Shown here one piece after another: positions 16,781 to 35,379 of a stretch of DNA of 64,000 nt. This DNA is from a virus. The translations under genes were made by a program, and so were the position numbers. Under the pieces are notes generated by a model. It saw nothing but the letters and a program-made list of their open reading frames with translations, did not search any database and was not told the DNA's origin. The DNA lies in the IMG/VR virus record IMGVR_UViG_3300043449_002292, positions 78,860-142,859 of that record, one strand, 5' to 3'. Numbering within the stretch: position 1 is the first letter of the stretch; each line of letters starts with the position of its first letter.

Positions 16781-18553
16781 TTATCTATCTACGAGAATAT
16801 GCTCAAGCAGCGATTTTAGCAGGATTCTCCTGCCATCTTGGATATCACCGCGTTCCCCTTTAACTATTCCCCAGTACATGTTTTTCATCTCCTGGTTCAG
16901 GTTTTTTGGAACGTAGCTATCGAATGATGACTTATCACCAGCCGCGATGAATCCACGCATCATGGTTCCTGAGATCTGCGTGGTTTCCGACCTTGGAACT
17001 GCGACCTGCTGGAACTTCTCCAGCACGGCAGGATCTTTGATCGTGCTCCTCATCTTGGCAGGGGAGTACTTGACTTTCGCATCCTCAACATCGGAGTAGA
17101 AGATGAAGCGACTGACGATGCCCTTCAGGTCTCGCATCTTGTTCACCGCAATATCGAGCGGTGACTCCTGGCTGATGATGAGCGTCGCGTTTGGAAAGTC
17201 CTTGTGAAACTGTGGCTCCAGCACCGACTTCCAGGCATCGATCATGACACCGGCTGGCAGCTCATCCCTTCCTGCGATCGATGTGATGATGAGAGCCTCG
17301 TCGCACTCACTCGCGACCCGACCGATCATCTTCCAGTGACCGTCATGAACCGGTTTACCCGCGAGGACGAAGATACCGACAGTGATCCCATTCCTGTCAC
17401 CGATCTCGACTCGCTTCATGATCCTCGTCTTCGTTGTCAGGAACAGGTCCTCCTGCCGCTGTATCAGCTCCTTCTTCCGGTGGAAGAGACGACCCAGCCT
17501 GTTCGAGATCGCCGCATCGAAGTAGCACTCGTTATGGATCCGCTCCAGCAAATCGTTCATCTCGGACTCCTTGATGTTACGATTCTGGGCTGGAGCAAAC
17601 TCAGCGACAATCTCATCCGCGATGGTGATGATCGAACTCCAGTAGGCCTGCTCGATCGGAGGCGTTTCCCGGAACTTATCTTTCACAGCTCCGCGGGTGG
17701 TCTCATCATGTTGGTCGGGGTTTAGGGCCTTGTAAAGAGCCCTCGTGGTCGATGTCCTCATCACGACGCCCTCGGCTGGGGACAGATCCGTCTCCGTCGA
17801 GAGAGAGGTCTTGAACTCCGAGAACACCTTGTAGATCACATCGATGATACGAAGGGGACGATCCGGTGAGCGATCGTTGTATGCATCGTTGAGTGAGCTG
17901 AACACTTCATTGAAACGACGCTCGATCGCCTTGTTCCTGATGCCCGCCCTGAAATCATTGATGCTGGAGAGCTTCCCGTCGAACATCACTGGATACGTTT
18001 TCACCCCTAGCAGCCGAGCGTATCGCTCCAGCATGTCATCATCATCGACAGGTGTCATGTTGCTGACGAGATGGGTTCCAGTGAGCTTGTAGTGGCATGG
18101 TCCGAAGAGCGTCAGGAAGATCCCATGCTTCTGGGGGTAATCACGGGTGATTGTCGCCTTGCGTTGCACGAACTCGAGGAAGAACTCGGTTCCCTGTGGA
18201 ATCTCCGCGGTCTGATGATGCATCCGCTCAAGCAGGGAATGAACGAGAGCATACTGCGCCGTTCCCGCCGAGTGCGCTCGGATCTCCTCCTCACGCTTTC
18301 CGAGTCCACGAATCTCACTTGGAAAGATCAGGTTACCCCTGTAGGCAACGTGCCAGTTCTTCGCGTAATCGTTCGGATCGAACTCGTTGTTGCGACGGAT
18401 GAGGGTAAGCTTCGTTCCGTCGATCTTCTCAACTATCCTGACGTTATCATCGAGAAACTGCCTTGCCTTGCGACGATCATTCTCACGCTCGCGTGGGGTA
18501 GCATCATCGCGGATCATGACCTTCCTAAGGTCCTTGATGGAGATGTCGGCCAT
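16781..18553 (-). CDS. Two-domain enzyme: ligase-type covalent nucleotidyltransferase fused to an NMNAT/cytidylyltransferase-type domain
   Basis: A 590-aa protein. N-terminal half: EKIDGTKL (K43, D45, G46) fits motif I of ATP-dependent DNA/RNA ligases and capping enzymes, where the lysine carries AMP or GMP. YRG at 71-73, EFFLEFV (around E127) and AEGVVMRTS (E261-R266), then LYKALNP (K275), fit the following motifs Ia, III, IV and V. C-terminal half: GIFVLAGKPVHDGHWKMI carries an HxGH motif (H403/H406), and QISGTMMRGF (527-535) matches the ISxTxxR motif of nucleotidylyltransferases such as NMNAT; RFIFYSD lies between. Known: HxGH enzymes move a nucleotidyl group onto phosphates (NMN, pantetheine-P and others); KxDG enzymes form enzyme-nucleotide adducts. 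I know of no characterised protein with this pairing. It starts four bases after the putative pol-beta-type nucleotidyltransferase. RNA repair, NAD-linked chemistry or end-joining are possible; the substrate is unknown. Confidence 0.75.
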   Translation of the reverse strand: MADISIKDLRKVMIRDDATPRERENDRRKARQFLDDNVRIVEKIDGTKLTLIRRNNEFDPNDYAKNWHVAYRGNLIFPSEIRGLGKREEEIRAHSAGTAQYALVHSLLERMHHQTAEIPQGTEFFLEFVQRKATITRDYPQKHGIFLTLFGPCHYKLTGTHLVSNMTPVDDDDMLERYARLLGVKTYPVMFDGKLSSINDFRAGIRNKAIERRFNEVFSSLNDAYNDRSPDRPLRIIDVIYKVFSEFKTSLSTETDLSPAEGVVMRTSTTRALYKALNPDQHDETTRGAVKDKFRETPPIEQAYWSSIITIADEIVAEFAPAQNRNIKESEMNDLLERIHNECYFDAAISNRLGRLFHRKKELIQRQEDLFLTTKTRIMKRVEIGDRNGITVGIFVLAGKPVHDGHWKMIGRVASECDEALIITSIAGRDELPAGVMIDAWKSVLEPQFHKDFPNATLIISQESPLDIAVNKMRDLKGIVSRFIFYSDVEDAKVKYSPAKMRSTIKDPAVLEKFQQVAVPRSETTQISGTMMRGFIAAGDKSSFDSYVPKNLNQEMKNMYWGIVKGERGDIQDGRRILLKSLLEHILVDR

Positions 18554-18557
18554 CAGA

Positions 18558-20087
18558 TCACCCCAGCATCATGTTAACAAGACGATTGATCCGACGGCGA
18601 GTCGACTCATCGACCCCAACGTCTTCTGTGTCCTCGATGAACCCCTTCTGTCCGCGCACCGTGTACTTATCATAGAACTCTTTCTTCATCGCCTCCACAT
18701 CCATCGTTGATGCATCAGCGTCAGGCAGGGCATTCTTGAAAGTTTCGATGATAGCTTCCTTCACACTCTTATCCTCTTGTGGGTCGGTGGCTGATATCTT
18801 CTGGGCACGGCGTCCGTAGAGCCTGATCACCAGCTCCTCGTATACTTTGACGATCTCAGGAGGTGAGAACCTCTCCTTCATCAGGTCAAGAATACCAACG
18901 AAGGACTGGAAGTCCTCCAATTCCCTCTCTGTGGGCTCCGACTCGCTCCCGAACAGTGACTTAAAGATCTGCTTGACGATCCGAATCGCACCAGAGCGCT
19001 CGGATCGTTTGAGGTACTTGTACACCTCATCACCATTATAAGTCCAGTCAAGCTTTTTGTATCGTTCCCCTAGTCCAGTTACAAGATCCACTGACAGCAG
19101 GGAACGTAAGCGGACAGGTCTCATTGAAGCGGCCTTGATCTCACGCTTCACCTGCGTGAGAGCCTGTGCGTATGCAGACTCAGGTTTCTTCTTGGGGAAG
19201 TCCCTGAGGATCTTTTTCATCTCCTCCTGCGCGCGGGCCTCGATCTCCTCATCGGTCGGGGACACAAAATCAGGATCCTTCGTCATGCTGATCCCAGGAT
19301 CCTCAGCGGTCGCTGACGGTGTCGCAAGACGCGCGTTGATCGGCATGGGCGACCTGATGGTGGCGATCGACATCAGGATCATCTTGTGGGCGAGTCCCTT
19401 GACGCCAGCCTCGATATCACGCCATGATGATGAGTGCGAGAATCGTGCCCACTCGGAGGGCTTCCCACCTTCATACTCCGATGATTCGAAATCGATCTGG
19501 AAGAAGGTATCACCCTCACCCGGAGAAGCCGCAGGATCCCAGGTGTAGGCGAAGAGAGCATTCATCTGATCCGTGCCGGGAGAGTGCTTATTATGCCCGA
19601 TGTACGCGATGCGATCCGTGAGCGACTGATCCTCAAGGCGTGTGAGGGTTGCGAAGAGCTCCTCCGCCCTCTCCTCCGGGATCGTGAGGTCGATATCGCC
19701 CACCGTGGGCTTGAACTTGATGAACCTCTCATCGGGCATCTTCTCGCGTGGAGCGAAGAGGTGGGCGGAGGAGCCGTTGAACGCGAAGCCCGTCCCGAGG
19801 ATCTCATCGCGGGTTTCAGGATCCCAGAGCGGATGACCATGATCACGTTTGAAACGATCGTCGAGCGCCACGAGCGCCTTGATCACCTCACGTCGGAAGT
19901 CCTCCCTCGTGATGCGACCGCCCTTCAGATCGATCTTCTCGGCATAAGCTTCCTTACCACGAAAGGTCTTCACCCGCTCTGGGCTGATGACTCGACCTGT
20001 CTCCGGATCACGAACGAGAGCTCGGGTGTTGCCACCCTCGACAAGCCCATCATACGATCCAAAGATAAAATTGGCGATGCTGAACAT
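18558..20087 (-). CDS. Putative polymerase-beta-fold nucleotidyltransferase
   Basis: A 509-aa protein. Seen: GTGFAFNGSSAHLFAP (GSS at 105-107), then VGDIDLTIPEE (D131, D133) and FFQIDFESSEY (D199), an arrangement matching the G-S ... D-x-D ... D signature of the polymerase-beta nucleotidyltransferase superfamily (CCA-adding enzymes, MNT, aminoglycoside adenylyltransferases). The gap between GSS and DxD is longer than usual. A second half rich in charged helices follows, with SLLSVDLVTGLGERYKKLDW and RAQKISATDPQED, unrecognised. It is the first gene of the accessory cassette, with a 16-bp hairpin at 20123-20169 upstream, and is followed four bases later by the ligase/adenylyltransferase fusion. 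Function and substrate unknown; the fold call is a motif inference. Confidence 0.6.
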   Translation of the reverse strand: MFSIANFIFGSYDGLVEGGNTRALVRDPETGRVISPERVKTFRGKEAYAEKIDLKGGRITREDFRREVIKALVALDDRFKRDHGHPLWDPETRDEILGTGFAFNGSSAHLFAPREKMPDERFIKFKPTVGDIDLTIPEERAEELFATLTRLEDQSLTDRIAYIGHNKHSPGTDQMNALFAYTWDPAASPGEGDTFFQIDFESSEYEGGKPSEWARFSHSSSWRDIEAGVKGLAHKMILMSIATIRSPMPINARLATPSATAEDPGISMTKDPDFVSPTDEEIEARAQEEMKKILRDFPKKKPESAYAQALTQVKREIKAASMRPVRLRSLLSVDLVTGLGERYKKLDWTYNGDEVYKYLKRSERSGAIRIVKQIFKSLFGSESEPTERELEDFQSFVGILDLMKERFSPPEIVKVYEELVIRLYGRRAQKISATDPQEDKSVKEAIIETFKNALPDADASTMDVEAMKKEFYDKYTVRGQKGFIEDTEDVGVDESTRRRINRLVNMMLG

Positions 20088-20192: not shown

Positions 20193-20663
20193 TCAGTTGC
20201 CTGCGAAGACTAGTGATCCGCTGCTCGTGAGAACGCAGAAGTTCAGACCATCAGAGATGAGGGAGACAGAGCTGCCTACCACAGTCTCAAGGCTTACCTT
20301 GCTGCCCTTGCTGTTGGGACTTGCGACTATGAACTTTCCAAGATTCGCAGCGGCAGTTCCCGTGAGAAAGTGCTGCTGACCTGCAGATCCTGCAGTTCTG
20401 AAGACGATCACACCGCCTGGGATCGTGGACGGTGCGGGTAGATACACGCCGGCCGCGGTAGCGTTATTGATGGTGTAAACCCCTGGATAGGTTATCGAAC
20501 CTGACGCGGCGACCACCTGCGCTGTCGAATACGGCGTGTTCGTCATTGAAACATCGCTGTTGAAAGTTGCTGTTGAGTTGAAGCTTGACGACACCTGAAC
20601 CGTTAGTCCAGTTCCTGAGGATGAATCGACAGTGCCACGTCCATCTATTGTTGTGCTTGCCAT
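20193..20663 (-). CDS. Small beta-rich virion protein of unknown function (possible capsid decoration)
   Basis: A 156-aa protein rich in Ser, Thr, Gly, Val and Ala, with STTIDGRGTVDSSSGTGL near the start, a middle PGVYTINNATAAGVYLPAP and a strand-rich end with SLISDGLNFCVLTSSGSLVF. There is no signal peptide or membrane helix. Repeated short beta strands of this type are common in head decoration proteins, fibres and their attachment parts. It is the first gene after the major capsid gene and its terminator, so it can be expressed separately from it. The decoration role is inferred from position and composition. Strong SD AAAGGAGA precedes the ATG. Confidence 0.55.
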   Translation of the reverse strand: MASTTIDGRGTVDSSSGTGLTVQVSSSFNSTATFNSDVSMTNTPYSTAQVVAASGSITYPGVYTINNATAAGVYLPAPSTIPGGVIVFRTAGSAGQQHFLTGTAAANLGKFIVASPNSKGSKVSLETVVGSSVSLISDGLNFCVLTSSGSLVFAGN

Positions 20664-20788: not shown

Positions 20789-22708
20789 TCAGATGATGTT
20801 CATGTCGAGGCAGGTGACCGTTCCGTAGAAGTCGGAGCGGACCATCTTCTTGCCGTAGCGGGTCATGACACCCTTACGCGGCGTGAAGTCCTCGGGAGCG
20901 AAGATCGTCGGGGTGACGATGAGCGGGACGTAAGGAGCGTAGACGTAGCCAGTCTCCAGGTAGCTGCCGCCCTTGAAGCCGACGAGAATCTTGTTCCTGG
21001 GGAAGTAAGGATCCTTGTAGACCGTGAAGCGGTTGCTGAGGGTGCCGACCTTCTCCGCGCCGATCGAGAACGGGGCGCCGACCTGACCGGAACCGTCGAT
21101 GCTGTAGCTCGGGCGGTAGTAGGTCGAGGCCTCGAGGATCGTCGCGACGTCCGGGCCGACAACGATGAAGTTGGCGGAGCCGCGGAGGGTCTTGCGGTGG
21201 ATCTCGTTACCGACGTCGATGATCGTCTCGGTGAGGGTCTCATACCACTCACGGACCGTGCCGGTGAAGTTCGGGCCCGGAGCGGTGGTGGAGGCGCGGC
21301 TGATCTCAGCGCCGGTGGTCTTGTTGACGAACCTGCCCGGGGCGCGTGACCAGAAGTAGTTCGCACCCGACGCCTGCGTGAGCAGGTCGTTCAGGATCTC
21401 ACGATCGAGCTCGAGGGCGATCTGCTCGGAGAGGATCTGGGTGAGCTCAACCTCAGCGTCGATGCTGTGGTAAGCGTTCAGGTCCTGCGCGAGCTCCGGA
21501 GACCAGCGAGCGCGGAGCTTGCGGGTCGTCGCGGTGACGGCGATGGACTCGATCTTGATGTCGATCTCGGGGATGACCGGGGAGGGGGTCGTGCCGAAGT
21601 TCGACTCGAAGACCGGGATGGTCACGGTGGAGCCAGTGGTGCTCTCAACGTCGAGCGCCGAGTTCAGCGGGTAGCTGATCTTGAGCGAGCTCGCGTAGCC
21701 ACCATCGGTGTCGAGCTTCGGAAGAAGGTTCGAGGCCGAGATGACGCAGAGCATGTGGGTTCCGGACAGCGGGGTCGCGGTGAACACCTTCGAGCTGTTG
21801 TTCCAAGTTCCAACCTGGTTGAGACGACGGATGTTGAGGACGCTGTTACCACCCTGGAAGGTCTCGCCCGGGATCAGGAGACCCGGGACGGTGCCAGTCG
21901 TGAAGATCGCGAAGTCCTTAACGAGCGACTGGTCGGAACCAGTGAGCTGTCCGAGATCGACAACGAGGAACTTGAAGAAGGCATCGCCGTCGGCAAGACC
22001 AGCGGGCTTCGGTGAGCTCTCGATGAGGCTGGTGACCTGCGGATCGAATCCGAGGAGGCGACCATCGGTTCCTGTGGCGTGGAGGTTCGCACGGGCCGTG
22101 AAGGCACCGGCGCCGCTGTAACCACCGGAGGCAACGATCTGAGCGGCGTTCAGCACGAAGTCGGCGTGAACGCGGCTGTAACCGGCGCCGGCGAGATCAT
22201 ACATACCACCGGTCGCAAGAGAGCCGCTCTGGACGCCCTTACCAACAGGGTTGTTGTAGATCGACTGACCGACGGTGTAGGTCGACTTGGTGGAAGCCGT
22301 TCCAGCTCCGTCAACGCCAGCATCACCACCGCGGTTGGTGCCGTAGGTGTAATCCAGGTAGAAGAGGAGACCGGAGGGGAGGCTCATCGGCTGGATCGAG
22401 ACGAGCTCGTTCGCCACGAGGCCGCCGAAGACGCGGCGGACGATGGGGAACGCGATGTTCGAGAAGCCGCGGATGTCGCTGCCGCCTGAGGAGAGAGAGC
22501 CACCGCCGCTGGAGAGAGCGTTGCTCTCGCGGAGGAGGTTGGCGGTCTGGTTCTCGAGGAGGCGAGCCATGTTCTCGCGATTGACTCCATCGAGGCCACG
22601 AAGCAGGCCGGTGCGGCCCCACTTCTCGACGAGGCGGCTGTTCTCCGCCCCGACGTCACGCCCGCGGATGCCTTCCGAGAGCTGCTCTAGTGTAAAAGAC
22701 TTAGACAT
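20789..22708 (-). CDS. gp23: Major capsid protein (gp23-like)
   Basis: A 639-aa HK97-fold capsid subunit (T4 gp23 is 521 aa). Seen: the leader MSKSFTLEQLSEGIRG; NMARLLENQTANLLRESNAL, where T4 homologues have the protease cleavage region; then FSNIAFPIVRRVFGGLVANE, LVSIQPMSLPSGLLFYLDY, RWSPELAQDLNAYHSIDAEV, EQIALELDREILNDLL, and the C-terminal part with YKDPYFPRNKILVGFKGGS and PRKGVMTRYGKKMV. These are the strongest landmarks of the T4 capsid family. L59-R60-E61 fits the [L/I]-x-E rule of the gp21 protease, suggesting a mature N-terminus near S62, close to the E65 site of T4 gp23. A strong terminator follows. No gp24-like vertex paralogue is in the window. Confidence 0.96.
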   Translation of the reverse strand: MSKSFTLEQLSEGIRGRDVGAENSRLVEKWGRTGLLRGLDGVNRENMARLLENQTANLLRESNALSSGGGSLSSGGSDIRGFSNIAFPIVRRVFGGLVANELVSIQPMSLPSGLLFYLDYTYGTNRGGDAGVDGAGTASTKSTYTVGQSIYNNPVGKGVQSGSLATGGMYDLAGAGYSRVHADFVLNAAQIVASGGYSGAGAFTARANLHATGTDGRLLGFDPQVTSLIESSPKPAGLADGDAFFKFLVVDLGQLTGSDQSLVKDFAIFTTGTVPGLLIPGETFQGGNSVLNIRRLNQVGTWNNSSKVFTATPLSGTHMLCVISASNLLPKLDTDGGYASSLKISYPLNSALDVESTTGSTVTIPVFESNFGTTPSPVIPEIDIKIESIAVTATTRKLRARWSPELAQDLNAYHSIDAEVELTQILSEQIALELDREILNDLLTQASGANYFWSRAPGRFVNKTTGAEISRASTTAPGPNFTGTVREWYETLTETIIDVGNEIHRKTLRGSANFIVVGPDVATILEASTYYRPSYSIDGSGQVGAPFSIGAEKVGTLSNRFTVYKDPYFPRNKILVGFKGGSYLETGYVYAPYVPLIVTPTIFAPEDFTPRKGVMTRYGKKMVRSDFYGTVTCLDMNII

Positions 22709-25748: not shown

Positions 25749-26057
25749 CTAAATTTCCTCGAGGATATCAGCGCGGAGCTCCTGACGAGCCTCGTTAACC
25801 TCGGACAGACGACGTGCAAGCTCGACTGCCTCGCGCTGCAGGTTCTCGTAGTGCTTCACCTTCTTGGCCAGCGTGCCAGCAAGCTCGGAGGGCTGCACCT
25901 CACGGGTCTTCTTGACCGCGTCCTTCATGTCCTTGGGCATGTCCGTGGAGGTAGACTTCGCCTTCTTTCCCTTCTTCTTCTCCTTCATAACCCTGGACTT
26001 CTCCTCCATGATGATTCTGCGGAGAATGCTGGGTGTGAGATTCACGATTCTTGACAT
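25749..26057 (-). CDS. Small basic helical protein, possible prohead core component
   Basis: A 102-aa, Lys/Glu-rich protein. The N-terminus carries LTPSILRRIIMEEKSRVMKE, an amphipathic helix like those starting the 161-aa and 402-aa proteins; then the basic stretch KEKKKGKKAKS; then a coiled-coil-like C-terminal half, KKVKHYENLQREAVELARRL. I-M-E at 16-18 would fit the [L/I]-x-E prohead protease rule. The small size, high charge and location between protease and scaffold genes are similar to T4 core proteins gp67 and gp68, but no sequence similarity to them is claimed. Confidence 0.5.
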   Translation of the reverse strand: MSRIVNLTPSILRRIIMEEKSRVMKEKKKGKKAKSTSTDMPKDMKDAVKKTREVQPSELAGTLAKKVKHYENLQREAVELARRLSEVNEARQELRADILEEI

Positions 26058-26106
26058 CTTCGTAGCTCCTATAAGGCTCAGATGTTAATTATCCCTAACA
26101 AACAGT

Positions 26107-26592
26107 CTACATCGACTTTTTTGAAGGAGCAAACGCAAGATCAGCCCAACTCGACGCTCCATCGAAAAGTGACATTGGATCAACGTCAGCCACGGGAGAC
26201 ATTGAATCAGCACGAACAGCCATCGCAGCGCCTGGGGAACGTTCAGCCTGCATCTGGCTGGGTAGTGTATTCCTCGCGGTGTCCTCGAATATCTGCTGCA
26301 TCACACCCTGCTGCTCACGGGGAAACTCAGCCGCCAGGTTCGCAATAGCTGGCATCGGCGCGCGGCGACCTTGCGCCTGCTCAGCTATCTTGGAAGCTCC
26401 AGCCGAGAATGTGACGCTGTCCAGATGCTTTTTCCCGACAGGTAAAGGAGAGGGTGCCCGTTCAGGCCTACGTGCCGGTGTTTCCCTGCTAGAACGTGAG
26501 CTCTCGTTGATAGTTGGTTTCAAACCCTCTATCATGACCTCAAGGATACACTCCTTGATTATGTCCTTCAGCTCTGATCTCGAAAGCGCCAT
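26107..26592 (-). CDS. Hypothetical prohead-region protein with core-type N-terminal helix
   Basis: A 161-aa protein. The N-terminus MALSRSELKDIIKECILE is an amphipathic helix seen in similar form in neighbouring genes, with I-L-E at 16-18 as a possible prohead protease site. A Pro/Arg/Ser-rich linker follows (residues 30-55), then an Ala-rich region with FPREQQGVMQQIFEDTARN and DPMSLFDGASSWADLAFAP near the end. It begins two bases after the protease gene stop. Function unknown; a core protein or a substrate packaged inside the head is plausible from context. Confidence 0.5.
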   Translation of the reverse strand: MALSRSELKDIIKECILEVMIEGLKPTINESSRSSRETPARRPERAPSPLPVGKKHLDSVTFSAGASKIAEQAQGRRAPMPAIANLAAEFPREQQGVMQQIFEDTARNTLPSQMQAERSPGAAMAVRADSMSPVADVDPMSLFDGASSWADLAFAPSKKSM

Positions 26593-26593
26593 C

Positions 26594-27208
26594 TTACTTC
26601 TTCCATGTTAGAATATCGTTGAATATTCTATCGATCCGATCGCTTCGATTAAATGTTCTTGAGAGTTCGTTCTGCTTTACCTGACGACCTTCACGCATCA
26701 TGAAAGCGCCGGGGGTTGAAGGTTCGGACACGAAATCCCAGCAGATGAGCTGAAAGTCGTCCTGAACGATCTGATGCTCGCCTGACTTCCGGGTTGAACC
26801 GACGCCTCGTGAGGAGATACCGAGCGTGACCCCAGCCTCGACGAGGCTCTGAAGTATCTTGCCGCAGGGGGTGTCGAGTATCTCGACGGTCCCGTAGCAG
26901 ACGTTGCCCTCCATGTAGGCTTCACGGACGATGTGGCTCACCTTCTTCAGCTCAACGACAGAGGAGTCCGGATGATCACATTCACCCAACGCGCGACTCT
27001 CACGAATGAACTTCTGGTAGTTGCGAACCTCTCGCTCCAGGATATCCTTTGGATAAACGCGACCGTTCTGGTTCAGGGTCTCCGCCTTCTGGAGGATACC
27101 TTTCATGATGAGTTTACCACCGTTCTGATCGCGGCTCTCCTTGACCATCTTGGAATCATAGGAGAACGGAGCCCACTCGGTGAGCAGCATTAGGGATCTA
27201 TCACTCAT
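26594..27208 (-). CDS. gp21: Prohead core protease (gp21-like)
   Basis: A 204-aa serine protease of the herpesvirus-assemblin-like prohead protease class (T4 gp21 is 212 aa). Seen: GILQKAETLNQNGRVYPKDI; GECDHPDSSVV with the probable catalytic H79; GTVEILDTPCGKIL; and GVTLGISSRGVGS with the Ser of the ISSRG loop (132-133), then WDFVSEPSTPGAFM. These are the usual landmarks in the usual order. It cleaves scaffold, capsid N-terminus and internal proteins at [L/I]-x-E sites in T4. Overlap of eight bases with the upstream 278-aa gene suggests coupling. Confidence 0.93.
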   Translation of the reverse strand: MSDRSLMLLTEWAPFSYDSKMVKESRDQNGGKLIMKGILQKAETLNQNGRVYPKDILEREVRNYQKFIRESRALGECDHPDSSVVELKKVSHIVREAYMEGNVCYGTVEILDTPCGKILQSLVEAGVTLGISSRGVGSTRKSGEHQIVQDDFQLICWDFVSEPSTPGAFMMREGRQVKQNELSRTFNRSDRIDRIFNDILTWKK

Positions 27209-31969: not shown

Positions 31970-32251
31970 CTAAATATGCACCCTCGAGTGAGGCGACGCT
32001 AGTCTCTTCGCGACGACCTCAGAAATCTTAGCTGGATCTGGTCTCCATCCTTCTAACCACGACTTCCTGTTAGTATCTACGATTTCATTTTCACAATCGA
32101 AGCAAGCACCGCATCTCGACAGAGAAATCGTATCTATCTCATCTATTGAAACACATCCGCAAATCAAGCACGAGATTGGAACTGATTCTCCCTTGGCATC
32201 TCCCCTCTTAACGATACGATACCCATTTTTCAGCTCAACTTCCTTCTTCAT
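31970..32251 (-). CDS. Small zinc-binding-type protein of unknown function
   Basis: A 93-aa protein with a cysteine cluster: CLICGC around residues 28-33 and CGACFDC around 47-53, so two CxxC-type pairs plus extra cysteines that could bind one or two zinc ions. The N-terminus has a beta-like ELKNGYRIVKRGDA and the C-terminus is a basic helix with ISEVVAKRLASPHSRVHI. The ATG overlaps the upstream recombination gene's stop by one base (TAATG), indicating coupling. The size and context suggest a small accessory of the recombination or packaging genes; no family was recognised. Confidence 0.55.
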   Translation of the reverse strand: MKKEVELKNGYRIVKRGDAKGESVPISCLICGCVSIDEIDTISLSRCGACFDCENEIVDTNRKSWLEGWRPDPAKISEVVAKRLASPHSRVHI

Positions 32252-35200
32252 TAATACCTCACCCTTGCGTCGATACCATCGTGAGAGATCTCGATCACGT
32301 TATCTACAATGTCCTTTATGCTGTCGACGTGGGAGATGACAAGCATGTTCTTGAAGTTACGCTTGAGTGACGTCAGCAATCTAGCGCATGCCTCGAGGTT
32401 GGTGTCATCCAGGGCGCCAAAGCCCTCGTCTATGATGAAAAGATCAGGCTTAGGAATCGCGGAAACTTCGATCAGGGCGGTTCTGATCGCAAGTGAGGAG
32501 ATCATCTTCTCCATTCCCGACGCAAGCTCGATCGGTCGTTTGGAGTCCCCGTAGTCAATGAAGATCTCGAGATCGCCGTCCTCCTCATTAGCCAGGAGCT
32601 CAACGTTGAAATTGGCCACGCCGGTTAGGACCTTGGCAATCTCCTGATTGATCCGCGGGAGCTGGGAAGCGATGATCTGCAGTGGGATGCCATCCTTACC
32701 CGTAGCGGACAGGATGGTCTCATAGATCTTCCAGTCAGCCTGCAGCTTCTCGATCCGAGCTATGTCCTGCTTAAGACGAGTGATTTCAGATCCGATGGCA
32801 CCGATACGCTGGTTATCCTTCAGGATTCTCTTCGAAATCTCGGTTGCCTTTCTCTCCTGCTCGTCAACCTCGAGCTGCATCGTCTTTACCTGCTCAAGGG
32901 CTGATACCGAAATCGCAGCGCGAATCTCCTGTAACAATTTGTTCACTCTCTGCGACTCCTGCTCATGAGACTCTACGAGAGACTCCAAAGTCTTCACCCG
33001 ACTCTCATGGGCCGCGTGGGATGTCTTCATGGATGGCAGCTTCGACTGTAGGGAGCTTAGCTTCTCGAACCGCTCCTTCATCTCCCTCAGGTTCTCAGAA
33101 TCAAAGCTCTGCTTCAGCTCATCGATTGTCGTGGCTATCTCGTCAAGGACTGCCTTGTGAGCAGGTATCAGCAGCTTGTCAGCGTGTGAATCCTTGATGT
33201 ATTTGCAGGTTGGGAACTTGTCGCCGCAGGGAACATCCGACAGCTTGCTCACTGATCGTTCCAAGCGCTGTAACGCGTCAGACTCATTTTTAAGCTTCGT
33301 CTGAGCCTCTCCAATCTTGCTAGAGACACGCTCCGATCGATCGATGTCAGCTTTCAATGACGAGATGTCTGACTTTTCGAAAACCTCATCAACCTTCTGG
33401 ATCTTTCGCTGCAGCTCGTCACGCTCCTCAATCGCCTGCGCCAGCTCATTCTTGGCTCGCTTGATCTTAGACTCGAGAGTTACAAGTTCTGACTCGTAAT
33501 TCTTGATATCGTCAAGCGTATGTGAGGATCCGGGAGATTCACGTTCCAGTATCGCTCGAAGCTTCTTCACATGGGATTCTATGGAGAGCTTCTCATTCTC
33601 GAGGATTGCCACCTCATCGTGAAGGTTCTTCTCCTCGATTTCCTTCGACTCGATGGAAGCGCGTAGATCCAAGGCAGGGGTGCGCTTCAACTCGGACTTG
33701 ATGGAGCTTGACGCTTCCTTGGCGAGCAGGTTCAGGGAATCAAAAACCTGCAGGTTCAGGAACTTCGAGAGTATGTTCTTGCGTGCGGTGGCACGCTCCT
33801 TCAGGAAGGTGTTCATCTCCCCCTGCGCCGCGAATGACGTGAGCAGGAAATCGTCCGAGGTTCCGATGAGGGAACGGAGCACCTTATCGGAATCCTTGCG
33901 CTGCTCTCCCGAGATATCCTCAACTGGCTTACCGTCCGCGTCGATCTTGAAAAGGTTGAGGTGGGTGACGGCGTGCTGTAGACCTGCTTTCGTCTGGTGC
34001 TTCACAGATTGGCGCTCTGACATGTAGGTGTCATTTCCAGCTTGAAATTCCACAGCCGCCTTACAGTAGTCCTTCCTTGTATTGATGATGTGAAGGTTCT
34101 TGATCGGCCCACGATCGGTCGTATTGAATAGGGAATACATGATCGTACCAGGGATCGATGACTTACCTTGAGCATTTCGACCGAAGATGCCTGTGATACC
34201 GCTCAGGTTCTCGAAATCGATCTCATTCTCCGTCCCGTAGGAGTAGGTGTTATCCCACTTGATCTTCTTGATCGACCACTTGACATCGCCCAACCTCTCA
34301 TCGGCTGGTAGGGATTCGATGAGCTTCGACACGGTGGATTCCAGCTTCATGAGAGAGTCACCTGATACTCCTTTGGATTCAGCGTAACTCCTGAACAATC
34401 CCTTGATGGTTGTGGGGTCACGAAGGTTCTCACGTGAGAGTGTGGTTGAACCCGCCCGCATCTCCTCCTTCACCTGCTCACCAACGAACTTCCAGACGAC
34501 CTCTGTCGCTGACATCTTTTTACGAAGCTCGCCAGCAAGCTGTCTGGACTCGGATATAACGATGTCCTCGCTGTTCAGAACCCTGAACCTGGACCCTCTG
34601 GGTAGCTTCTCGCAAACCTGCATCGTGGACGAGACGTCACCCTGCCATTCAACGGTCTGGAATGGGCGTGGATTCTTCAGCTTAATGAAGTTGACCCGAT
34701 AATCTTCCCGACCCTTGATCTGCCAGAAGAGAAACCCCTTCTCGGTGTCCTCACCGTAGTTCTGCTGCACGGTGGAGCCCGGATAGGCGATCCTGGTGTC
34801 TCCATCGAGGAACTGCCGACGGTGGATATCTCCGAGGAGAGTGAAATCGTAAGGTCGAAACATGTCGACCGTCACCTCACCCTCGATGGGCATGCCAGTA
34901 TCGAGGAGGGAACCTCCTACCGCTCCGTGGTAGAGGGCGATGTTGATCAGGTTGGGATCATCGCTCGGGTTGCACTTACCCCAGTTCTCCTCATCGAAGC
35001 ATGAAAAGTTAGCGAAGTTGATTCCATTGATCTCGTAGTTTCCCGAGTCCTTCAGGAAGTGGATATTATGATGATCAAGTGCAGAGATAATGGGAGAGAT
35101 CGCATCAAGACGGGACTTATTATGGATGAGGCCGTCATGATTGCCGAGAATAACAACGGTGGGCCAGTTCGAAAGCTTCTGAAACCACCAACGGAGACGA

Positions 35201-35379
35201 TCCACGAGCTCCGGGGTGATGCCTTGCGTCTTCGAGTGGACGATGTCGCCACCGACGACGATCATGTCTGGATGGAGCTCATCGAGCTTCCTGAAGAAAT
35301 CCTCGAACACCTCGGTGTATTCATCATGACGCTGCAGGCCGCGCCAGTGGATGTCGGCAATATGTGCGATCTTGATCAA
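32251..35379 (-). CDS. gp47-gp46: Fused recombination exonuclease: gp47/Mre11-SbcD nuclease joined to gp46/Rad50-SbcC ATPase
   Basis: A 1042-aa protein combining both subunits of the end-processing complex. N-terminal metallophosphoesterase: AHIADIHWRG (D9, H11), VVGGDIVHSK (D45), VILGNHDG (N80, H81), ALYHG (H151), LLGDIHRRQF (D184, H186). Then SMC-type ATPase: Walker A GIFGRNAQGKSS (about 398-408), a long coiled coil from about 560 to 890, hook-region cysteines C718 and C725 (VPCGDKFPTCKY), signature ELASGMEKMISS (951-962) and Walker B DLFIIDEGFGALD (979-991). In T4 gp46 and gp47 are separate and act in recombination-dependent replication and host DNA degradation. The start is a TTG at 35379 (GGGAG six bases upstream) sharing two bases with the primase stop. 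Confidence 0.93.
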   Translation of the reverse strand: MIKIAHIADIHWRGLQRHDEYTEVFEDFFRKLDELHPDMIVVGGDIVHSKTQGITPELVDRLRWWFQKLSNWPTVVILGNHDGLIHNKSRLDAISPIISALDHHNIHFLKDSGNYEINGINFANFSCFDEENWGKCNPSDDPNLINIALYHGAVGGSLLDTGMPIEGEVTVDMFRPYDFTLLGDIHRRQFLDGDTRIAYPGSTVQQNYGEDTEKGFLFWQIKGREDYRVNFIKLKNPRPFQTVEWQGDVSSTMQVCEKLPRGSRFRVLNSEDIVISESRQLAGELRKKMSATEVVWKFVGEQVKEEMRAGSTTLSRENLRDPTTIKGLFRSYAESKGVSGDSLMKLESTVSKLIESLPADERLGDVKWSIKKIKWDNTYSYGTENEIDFENLSGITGIFGRNAQGKSSIPGTIMYSLFNTTDRGPIKNLHIINTRKDYCKAAVEFQAGNDTYMSERQSVKHQTKAGLQHAVTHLNLFKIDADGKPVEDISGEQRKDSDKVLRSLIGTSDDFLLTSFAAQGEMNTFLKERATARKNILSKFLNLQVFDSLNLLAKEASSSIKSELKRTPALDLRASIESKEIEEKNLHDEVAILENEKLSIESHVKKLRAILERESPGSSHTLDDIKNYESELVTLESKIKRAKNELAQAIEERDELQRKIQKVDEVFEKSDISSLKADIDRSERVSSKIGEAQTKLKNESDALQRLERSVSKLSDVPCGDKFPTCKYIKDSHADKLLIPAHKAVLDEIATTIDELKQSFDSENLREMKERFEKLSSLQSKLPSMKTSHAAHESRVKTLESLVESHEQESQRVNKLLQEIRAAISVSALEQVKTMQLEVDEQERKATEISKRILKDNQRIGAIGSEITRLKQDIARIEKLQADWKIYETILSATGKDGIPLQIIASQLPRINQEIAKVLTGVANFNVELLANEEDGDLEIFIDYGDSKRPIELASGMEKMISSLAIRTALIEVSAIPKPDLFIIDEGFGALDDTNLEACARLLTSLKRNFKNMLVISHVDSIKDIVDNVIEISHDGIDARVRY

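Follow-up and report, generated by a model that had tools for sequence, protein, structure and literature searches.

Why would a virus keep, among the genes that build its head, a protein in which the fold of an RNA ligase is joined to that of a HUP nucleotidyltransferase? The question is raised by gene P0001 (16781..18553, minus strand), which has an ATG start and encodes 590 residues. The gene lies in a 64,000-base stretch of viral DNA (G000:78860-142859; the window, by which we mean this whole stretch) that is part of a 142,859-base and possibly incomplete virus record, IMGVR_UViG_3300043449_002292. We propose, with confidence that is about evenly balanced, that P0001 is the sealing enzyme of a nucleic-acid end-repair module delivered by the virion, RNA being a likelier substrate than DNA.

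Domain architecture and conservation of P0001

A preliminary description of this reading frame had proposed a fusion of a ligase-type nucleotidyltransferase with a nucleotidyltransferase of the HUP (HxGH) type. The proposal is confirmed by the presence of both folds in the structural model and in fold searches, and by conservation of the motifs. These were found at the residues where they had been placed, with EKIDGTK (K43), EFFLEFV (E127), EGVVMR (E261) and a motif-V lysine (K275) in the ligase part and HDGH (residues 403-406) and ISGTMMR (residues 527-533) in the HUP part. The same description had overlooked the adjoining partner nucleotidyltransferase and the leaders for capsid targeting, as well as how wide the family is among T4-like phages.

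P0001 was aligned with 46 of 51 selected non-redundant relatives, giving 47 rows; relatives with a match spanning fewer than 430 residues had been excluded before the 51 were counted. The aligned relatives are 22-74% identical to P0001, and K43, D45, G46, K48, E127, E261, G262, K275, R287, and H406 are identical in all 47 rows, so the motifs are more than a chance occurrence. The AlphaFold2 model, computed from 47 rows of window and IMG/VR sequences, has a mean predicted local distance difference test score (pLDDT) of 93.4 and a predicted template modelling score of 0.89. Foldseek searches with this model returned T4 RNA ligase 2 (Rnl2) first, followed by phosphopantetheine adenylyltransferase (PPAT) and nicotinamide mononucleotide adenylyltransferase (NMNAT) chains. 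Among viral predicted structures, the best matches were a 484-residue protein, a protein of Campylobacter phage IBB35 and cytidyltransferase-like phage proteins, with RNA ligases next. The function-unassigned family phrog_27149 matches P0001 at 2.7e-25, and a PDB sequence search with P0001 alone yielded chance-level matches only.

The ligase-type domain occupies approximately residues 1-290 (17684..18553, minus strand; the boundary is approximate and taken from the secondary structure of the model). The codon of K43, the predicted AMP-accepting lysine, is at 18425..18427 (minus strand). The RNA_ligase model PF09414 matches residues 37-274 at E 2.2e-5 and 25.1 bits, just below its 27-bit cut-off, and it matches 8 of the 47 members at E 0.01. 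T4 Rnl2 chains hold Foldseek ranks 1-4, with E-values from 2.6e-7 (2hvr) to 1.8e-5. The VIA list for P0001 was filled by the HUP domain and did not probe the ligase part. Judged by the alignment, the ligase site of the family is under strict constraint. P0001 thus resembles the T4 Rnl2/PF09414 family in fold and in motifs I, III, IV, and V, and differs from it by the HUP fusion and by the score just under the Pfam cut-off. Its ligase domain is Rnl2-like by motifs and predicted fold, and its predicted activity is the joining of RNA ends.

A helical region in the model (approximately residues 291-385; 17399..17683, minus strand) leads to the HUP domain at approximately residues 386-590 (16784..17398, minus strand). 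VIA-align superimposed residues 389-567 on PPAT with a Z score of 13.1 and a root-mean-square deviation of 2.8 over 154 aligned positions. The two signatures, HDGH at 17336..17347 and ISGTMMR at 16955..16975 (both minus strand), vary within the family. Across the 47 rows, position 403 is H in 21, T in 24 and S in 2, G405 is kept in 29 and H406 in all, whereas S528 is kept in 45 and R533 in only 21. The refuting conditions set by the preliminary description, absence of the two folds or a lack of conservation of the lysine and the HxGH residues, did not materialise, but the first histidine of HxGH is replaced by threonine in about half of the family. Two HUP subtypes were seen, one KPVHxGH-like with ISGTxMR and the other GKFRxLT..H with ISATK.

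Pfam scans of the 47 members at E 0.01 gave Citrate_ly_lig in 16, CTP_transf_like in 14 and ATP-sulfurylase in 4, and NMNAT models scored far below their cut-off on P0001. The HUP part of the family profile retrieved NMNAT, PPAT and related chains from PDB, and a PHROG scan of the C-terminal part gave weak cytidyltransferase and NMNAT matches. An identification of the best PDB profile match, 9x6f, as the NARP1 enzyme Namat was rejected, Namat being NAMPT-like according to PMC12774641. The family thus resembles PPAT/NMNAT-type enzymes in the fold of residues 389-567 and in the (H/T)xxH signature, but it has lost the signature arginine in about half of its members, and in P0001 the fusion partner is a ligase, not a kinase or NUDIX domain. 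On the aligned sequences, the HUP site retains the superfamily signature with variation and gives no specific pointer to NMNAT.

Partner nucleotidyltransferase P0002

The gene for a 509-residue protein, P0002 (18558..20087, minus strand), ends 4 bases upstream of P0001. Its alignment comprises 57 rows, the window protein and 56 of 60 candidates, with 25-73% identity to the window protein. All 57 keep G105, S106, D131, D133, and D199, an invariant GS/DxD/D pattern. The model (pLDDT 91.4) gave no Foldseek match below E 0.001. All 50 rows listed by VIA were Pol X polymerases, at Z scores of 7.3-7.9, a level that chance arrangements also reach. No meaningful Pfam or NCBIfam match was obtained for P0002, and its profile found a single chance-level match in PDB (E 0.43). 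At E 0.1, none of the 57 family members was matched by a Pfam model recognisable as RlaP; Pfam presumably includes such a model. On the basis of the Pol X rows and the invariant residues, we call P0002 a divergent Pol-beta-superfamily nucleotidyltransferase (hereafter NTase), with a predicted activity. At two loci, L079:4677-6877 and L112:4770-6461, two genes of this family stand in tandem ahead of the ligase-HUP gene.

Distribution and fusion of the three domains

Among GenBank phages, the ligase-HUP protein was found in 21 records (15 Campylobacter and 6 Vibrio). All of these phages also match P0002 (in IBB_35 on another contig), and a 22nd record with P0002 is that of Xanthomonas phage X1. 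The distance between the two genes ranges from approximately 1.3 kb in Vibrio phage pv27 to approximately 65 kb in CP220. The proteins of the Campylobacter phage CP220 and Vibrio phage pv27 groups (phrog_27149) share the two-domain architecture with P0001 at approximately 25% identity over 64-79% of the query; they differ in having a T- or K-type rather than an H-type HUP signature, and are annotated as hypothetical, with a nucleotidylyl transferase note in CP220. Scans of IMG/VR gave 67 and 51 loci. Two narrow pattern scans of bacterial and archaeal genomes produced 24 and 148 pattern matches, and no relative was confirmed among them.

The arrangement of the domains varies among the loci. In L040 and L042 all three domains (ligase, HUP, NTase) share a single frame of 954-958 residues, and frames of 987-1439 residues carry the NTase ahead of ligase and HUP in L106, L114-L119, L121-L123, and L125. 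The three are separate genes in X1 (L009), Moby (L010), L124, and L127. Profile alignments of split against fused forms gave 88.8% probability (E 2.5e-6, 222 columns) for the ligases and 99.2% (E 2.4e-19) for the HUP sets. This repeated fusion and splitting across phages is good evidence that the ligase, HUP and NTase domains function together. Within the titles and abstracts of the open-licence literature, a search that leaves most subscription papers outside, we found no description of the ligase-HUP fusion or of virion-packaged nucleic-acid repair enzymes.

Neighbouring genes in relatives

Grouping of the loci by shared similar proteins gave 34 lineages. Four of these consist of parts of the window's own record that lack the genes, so that 30 were considered. 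The most recurrent neighbour, present in 12 of the 30 lineages and directly downstream in several, is a calcineurin-like phosphoesterase of approximately 185 residues. A P-loop kinase is found near the module in 6 of the 30 (AAA_33, best E 1.8e-9; Zeta_toxin weaker); it stands between NTase and ligase-HUP in L054, L055, L062, and L068 and shares one frame with the NTase in L041. The gene order in L104 is NTase, ligase-HUP, kinase, phosphoesterase. In L039, a CCA-adding enzyme (PolyA_pol 3.7e-12, HD 2.8e-5) directly follows ligase-HUP, with the phosphoesterase and NTase beyond it, and in Vibrio phages a tRNA nucleotidyltransferase is located at most 8 kb from the module. PF01743 was detected in 8 of the 47 records. 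The per-record count of phosphoesterases says little, as control genomes match too.

The kinds of phage RNA-repair enzyme named in section 3.4.9 of PMC7824862 are ligase, Pol-beta NTase, kinase, phosphoesterase, and CCA enzyme, and the neighbour set in relatives fits this logic. The closest comparison is with the predicted systems of jumbo phages described there, in which an RNA ligase and an RlaP Pol-beta NTase occur with a kinase, phosphoesterases (including calcineurin-like ones) and a CCA enzyme. The module described here differs in that its NTase belongs to another family, one without a Pfam match, and in the addition of a HUP domain and capsid-targeting leaders; none of these three features is mentioned in that section of PMC7824862. 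Because the helper enzymes are absent from its record, the phage of the window may be said to work like the healing-and-sealing systems rather than to be a full member of them.

Other genes were noted near the module. Proteins of approximately 300-450 residues (phrog_1462, the first half of phrog_12709, and phrog_3060) recur beside it, at L065:3298-4662, L073:3854-5131, L103:8170-9159, L009:5942-6946, L010:6300-7244, and L128:576-1778. Inspected by eye, they have PD-(D/E)xK-nuclease-like motifs (ISLK after Asp), which searches did not confirm; the same holds for a HAD-like gene in L039. Close to the module in CP220, X1 and Moby (L006, L007, L009, L010) there are genes of the QueE-like or radical-SAM kind, which may hint at a link with 7-deazaguanine and modified DNA. 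In the window, the start of a 1042-residue frame (32251-35379, minus strand) resembles an SbcD-type nuclease, and related frames of approximately 1046 residues in the L035 and L036 records have weak phosphoesterase matches.

Capsid-targeting leaders and head genes

In the window, P0002, P0001 and P0003 lie between the genes for the major capsid protein and the head-tail adaptor (neck). The upstream neighbour is a gp23-type major capsid protein (20789..22708, minus strand; PF07068, E 1.3e-75), separated from P0002 by a gene for a 156-residue protein (20193-20663, minus strand) with no PHROG match at E 0.1. A gp21-type prohead protease (Peptidase_S77; 26594..27208, minus strand) is recognised by PF03420 at 26696-27121 with E 1.5e-27. 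Since P0001 lies inside this head-morphogenesis cluster, it is probably a late gene, as the preliminary description had anticipated.

P0002 starts with a 17-residue, capsid-targeting-like leader (20037..20087, minus strand) that ends in LVE before GGN; model residues 1-18 have pLDDT below 50. In the 71 unique NTases whose core starts with GGN, this motif is preceded by E (41 proteins), M (29) or V (1, an internal match in a broken copy). Glutamate thus stands directly before GGN in all 41 true leader-bearing NTases. Two residues before it these have L (26), I (9), V (4), M (1), or F (1), and glutamate makes up 3.3% of the remaining leader residues. Leaderless members start MGGN, so that a cut after the leader glutamate would leave the same N-terminus as removal of methionine does in them. 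Of the 25 lineages for which an NTase start is available, 12 have leaders, and one of these 12 is mixed. Ligase-HUP proteins often start like MKTFKQYITE-A or MNFVQYINE-G ahead of a conserved DISI core. A loose regular expression for leaders matches 6 of 10 kinases; it also matches 6 of 21 phosphoesterases, several of them through an unrelated metal-site motif.

In T4, capsid targeting sequences are propeptides of 10-19 residues that bring internal proteins into the head and are removed by gp21, and many of the internal proteins are ejected, as summarised in the relevant part of PMC9026906. The likeness to the T4 internal proteins and Alt, as they are presented there, lies in the short N-terminal leader ending in a glutamate cleavage site, the prohead protease and the late head genes. 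The difference is in the cargo, here a set of nucleotidyltransferase and ligase. The protease of the window would be expected to cut such leaders, and the P0002 leader together with the gene position suggests that packaging takes place in this phage. In passages of the literature on Campylobacter phage virion proteomics, the module genes are not named. In the 278-kb L035 record the module is far from the gp23 match, and its forms there are leaderless.

Directly downstream of the ligase-HUP gene, P0003 (15556..16764, minus strand) encodes a 402-residue, Ala/Gly-rich and probably helical protein with a leader-like N-terminus and a weak tape-measure PHROG match. In L021, a P0003-type sequence is joined in frame to the end of the ligase-HUP frame (986 residues). 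P0003 is possibly a further virion protein, either internal or active on membranes. Next to the prohead protease gene, two small genes (25749-26592, minus strand) also have starts that resemble capsid-targeting leaders (MSRIVNLTPSILRRIIMEE and MALSRSELKDIIKECI).

Cyanophage homologues and the virion protein T4-GC190

A search with the HUP protein that stands alone in X1 gave matches to 276 phage records at E-values up to 1, many of them weak, and 201 of these records are named Synechococcus, cyanophage or Prochlorococcus. Many of the 60 matches listed are annotated as cytidyl- or cytitidyltransferase. In Prochlorococcus phage Syn33, the homologue Syn33_182 (T4-GC 190 according to the record note) starts MKKFSAFLTE-A, and two other cyanophage homologues start MKSLFQFLSE-A and MKSFLNFFSE-A. 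Syn33_182 follows Syn33_181, which has KWDG and other ligase-like motifs; the ligase identity of Syn33_181 is indicated by these motifs and a weak profile match only. Alignment of the HUP domain of three cyanophage sequences gave 97.0% (E 1e-10) against the window family and 99.4% (E 5.7e-22) against the split set.

At the DNA level, the stretch of Syn33_181 and Syn33_182 was found in 208 phage records, in 192 of them with at least 80% covered, and Syn33_181 was found by tblastn in 470. One profile, phrog_455 (764 positions), spans both proteins, which suggests that their counterparts are fused in some phages. The three cyanophage stretches that were read yielded no NTase. T4-GC190 (phrog_395/phrog_455) therefore resembles the window family in its homologous HUP domain, its leader and the adjacent ligase-like gene in Syn33, and differs in that the HUP gene of Syn33 stands alone. 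According to passages of Sullivan et al. 2010 (PMC3037559), 41 proteins were detected in purified S-SM1 virions, including the putative citidylyltransferase T4-GC190, which was assigned to the core shared by the 16 cyanophages under comparison.

Proposed mechanism and alternative explanations

In many of these phages at least one enzyme of the set bears a leader of the T4 capsid-targeting type. In the mechanism that we propose, the set would accordingly be packaged into the head, undergo trimming by the prohead protease and leave the particle along with the DNA, so as to be ready before phage genes are expressed. A phosphoesterase and a kinase, of the phage or the host, would prepare the ends, and the Pol-beta-type enzyme would restore nucleotides lost from a broken 3' end, in line with the role suggested for the RlaP enzymes of other phages. 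The Rnl2-like domain would self-adenylylate on K43 and join 5'-phosphate to 3'-hydroxyl ends. The HUP domain would contribute another ATP-using step, which may take place at the phosphate of the broken end, where an adenylyl group would be added or taken off; alternatively, it may modify the repaired RNA. The likeliest substrate would be RNA, whether tRNA or another kind, that nucleases of the host's defence have cut.

Several observations weigh against this mechanism. Pol X enzymes act on DNA, and we know of nothing that explains a HUP domain in RNA repair. No match to phosphoesterase, kinase or CCA-enzyme profiles was found in the window's 142,859-base record, which may be incomplete, and phrog_547 is common generally, since 11 of 14 control genomes have it as well as 34 of 47 records. 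The NTase is leaderless in approximately 13 of 25 lineages. The loose leader expression matches only 17 of 58 ligase-HUP proteins, compared with 73 of 792 other genes and approximately 5% of shuffles. In the phage of the window, a leader is present on P0002 and perhaps on P0003, and P0001 has none.

Other explanations were weighed against the same evidence. Fairly unlikely, in our judgement, is a module that repairs ends or gaps in DNA, in which a packaged Pol X-like enzyme and the ligase would mend the injected genome while the HUP domain sets or removes adenylylated 5' ends. P0002 does align best with Pol mu, beta and lambda, the leaders suggest delivery together with DNA, and nuclease-like genes, recognised from motifs by eye, recur beside the NTase; kinases and phosphoesterases, moreover, serve DNA ends too. 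However, the ligase fold and Pfam match are those of Rnl2 and RNA ligases, a CCA-adding enzyme adjoins ligase-HUP in L039, and the VIA Z scores of P0002 stay below 8. The ligase family and the CCA-adding neighbours are the reasons for which RNA is the likelier substrate. Distinctly improbable is a set of injected host-takeover enzymes that attach nucleotides to tRNAs or proteins of the host immediately upon entry, much as T4 Alt attaches ADP-ribose. This would account for the capsid-targeting leaders, and Pol-beta NTases are listed in a passage of PMC5512222 among the protein-modifying domains of injected polyvalent proteins, but it explains neither the healing-type neighbours nor why a ligase that keeps motifs I, III, IV, and V intact should be part of the fusion.

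That P0001 acts on RNA or DNA ends had been suggested in general terms by the preliminary description, and the neighbour genes in relatives back this idea. The same text had added NAD-type caps, which the results do not support. An NMN adenylyltransferase coupled to the ligase, serving NAD metabolism or NAD-type capping, is very unlikely. NMNAT chains are among the profile matches of the HUP part, and the phage NMNAT PHROG matches some members, but PPAT ranks equally high, Citrate_ly_lig and CTP_transf_like are the matches of 16 and 14 members, the arginine of ISxTxxR is kept in 21 of 47, and no NAD gene is prominent among the recurrent neighbours of the module in relatives. NAD-cap chemistry is therefore unsupported beyond the fold class, and the earlier interpretation as a whole is partly supported. 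Most improbable is that these are mainly structural internal head proteins that have retained enzyme folds. Such proteins would agree with the presence of T4-GC190 in virions, in the account of PMC3037559, and with the position between capsid and neck genes in the window, but the catalytic residues do not vary among ligases 22-74% and NTases 25-73% identical to the window proteins, and L035 offers leaderless forms at a distance from capsid genes.

Significance for T4-like phages

A broader extension of the end-repair mechanism is speculative and fairly unlikely. T4-like phages, many of them marine, might carry a capsid repair set in which the HUP domain adenylylates the broken end at the expense of ATP or removes AMP from it by pyrophosphorolysis. 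In this way the HUP domain would feed or proofread the fused ligase, a step that would be new to RNA repair, and T4-GC190 would belong to the same set.

If the proposed end repair is real, phages would inject mending enzymes with their genome and would not have to wait for early genes after breaks inflicted by host defence. It would also provide a testable role for T4-GC190, a virion protein common to all 16 cyanophages in the comparison reported in PMC3037559, whose gene region, among the matches listed, is mostly annotated as cytidyl- or cytitidyltransferase or hypothetical protein. P0001 would be a ligase naturally fused to a second domain of an adenylyl-transferring kind, and capsid-targeting leaders such as that of P0002 may offer a route to finding ejected phage enzymes.

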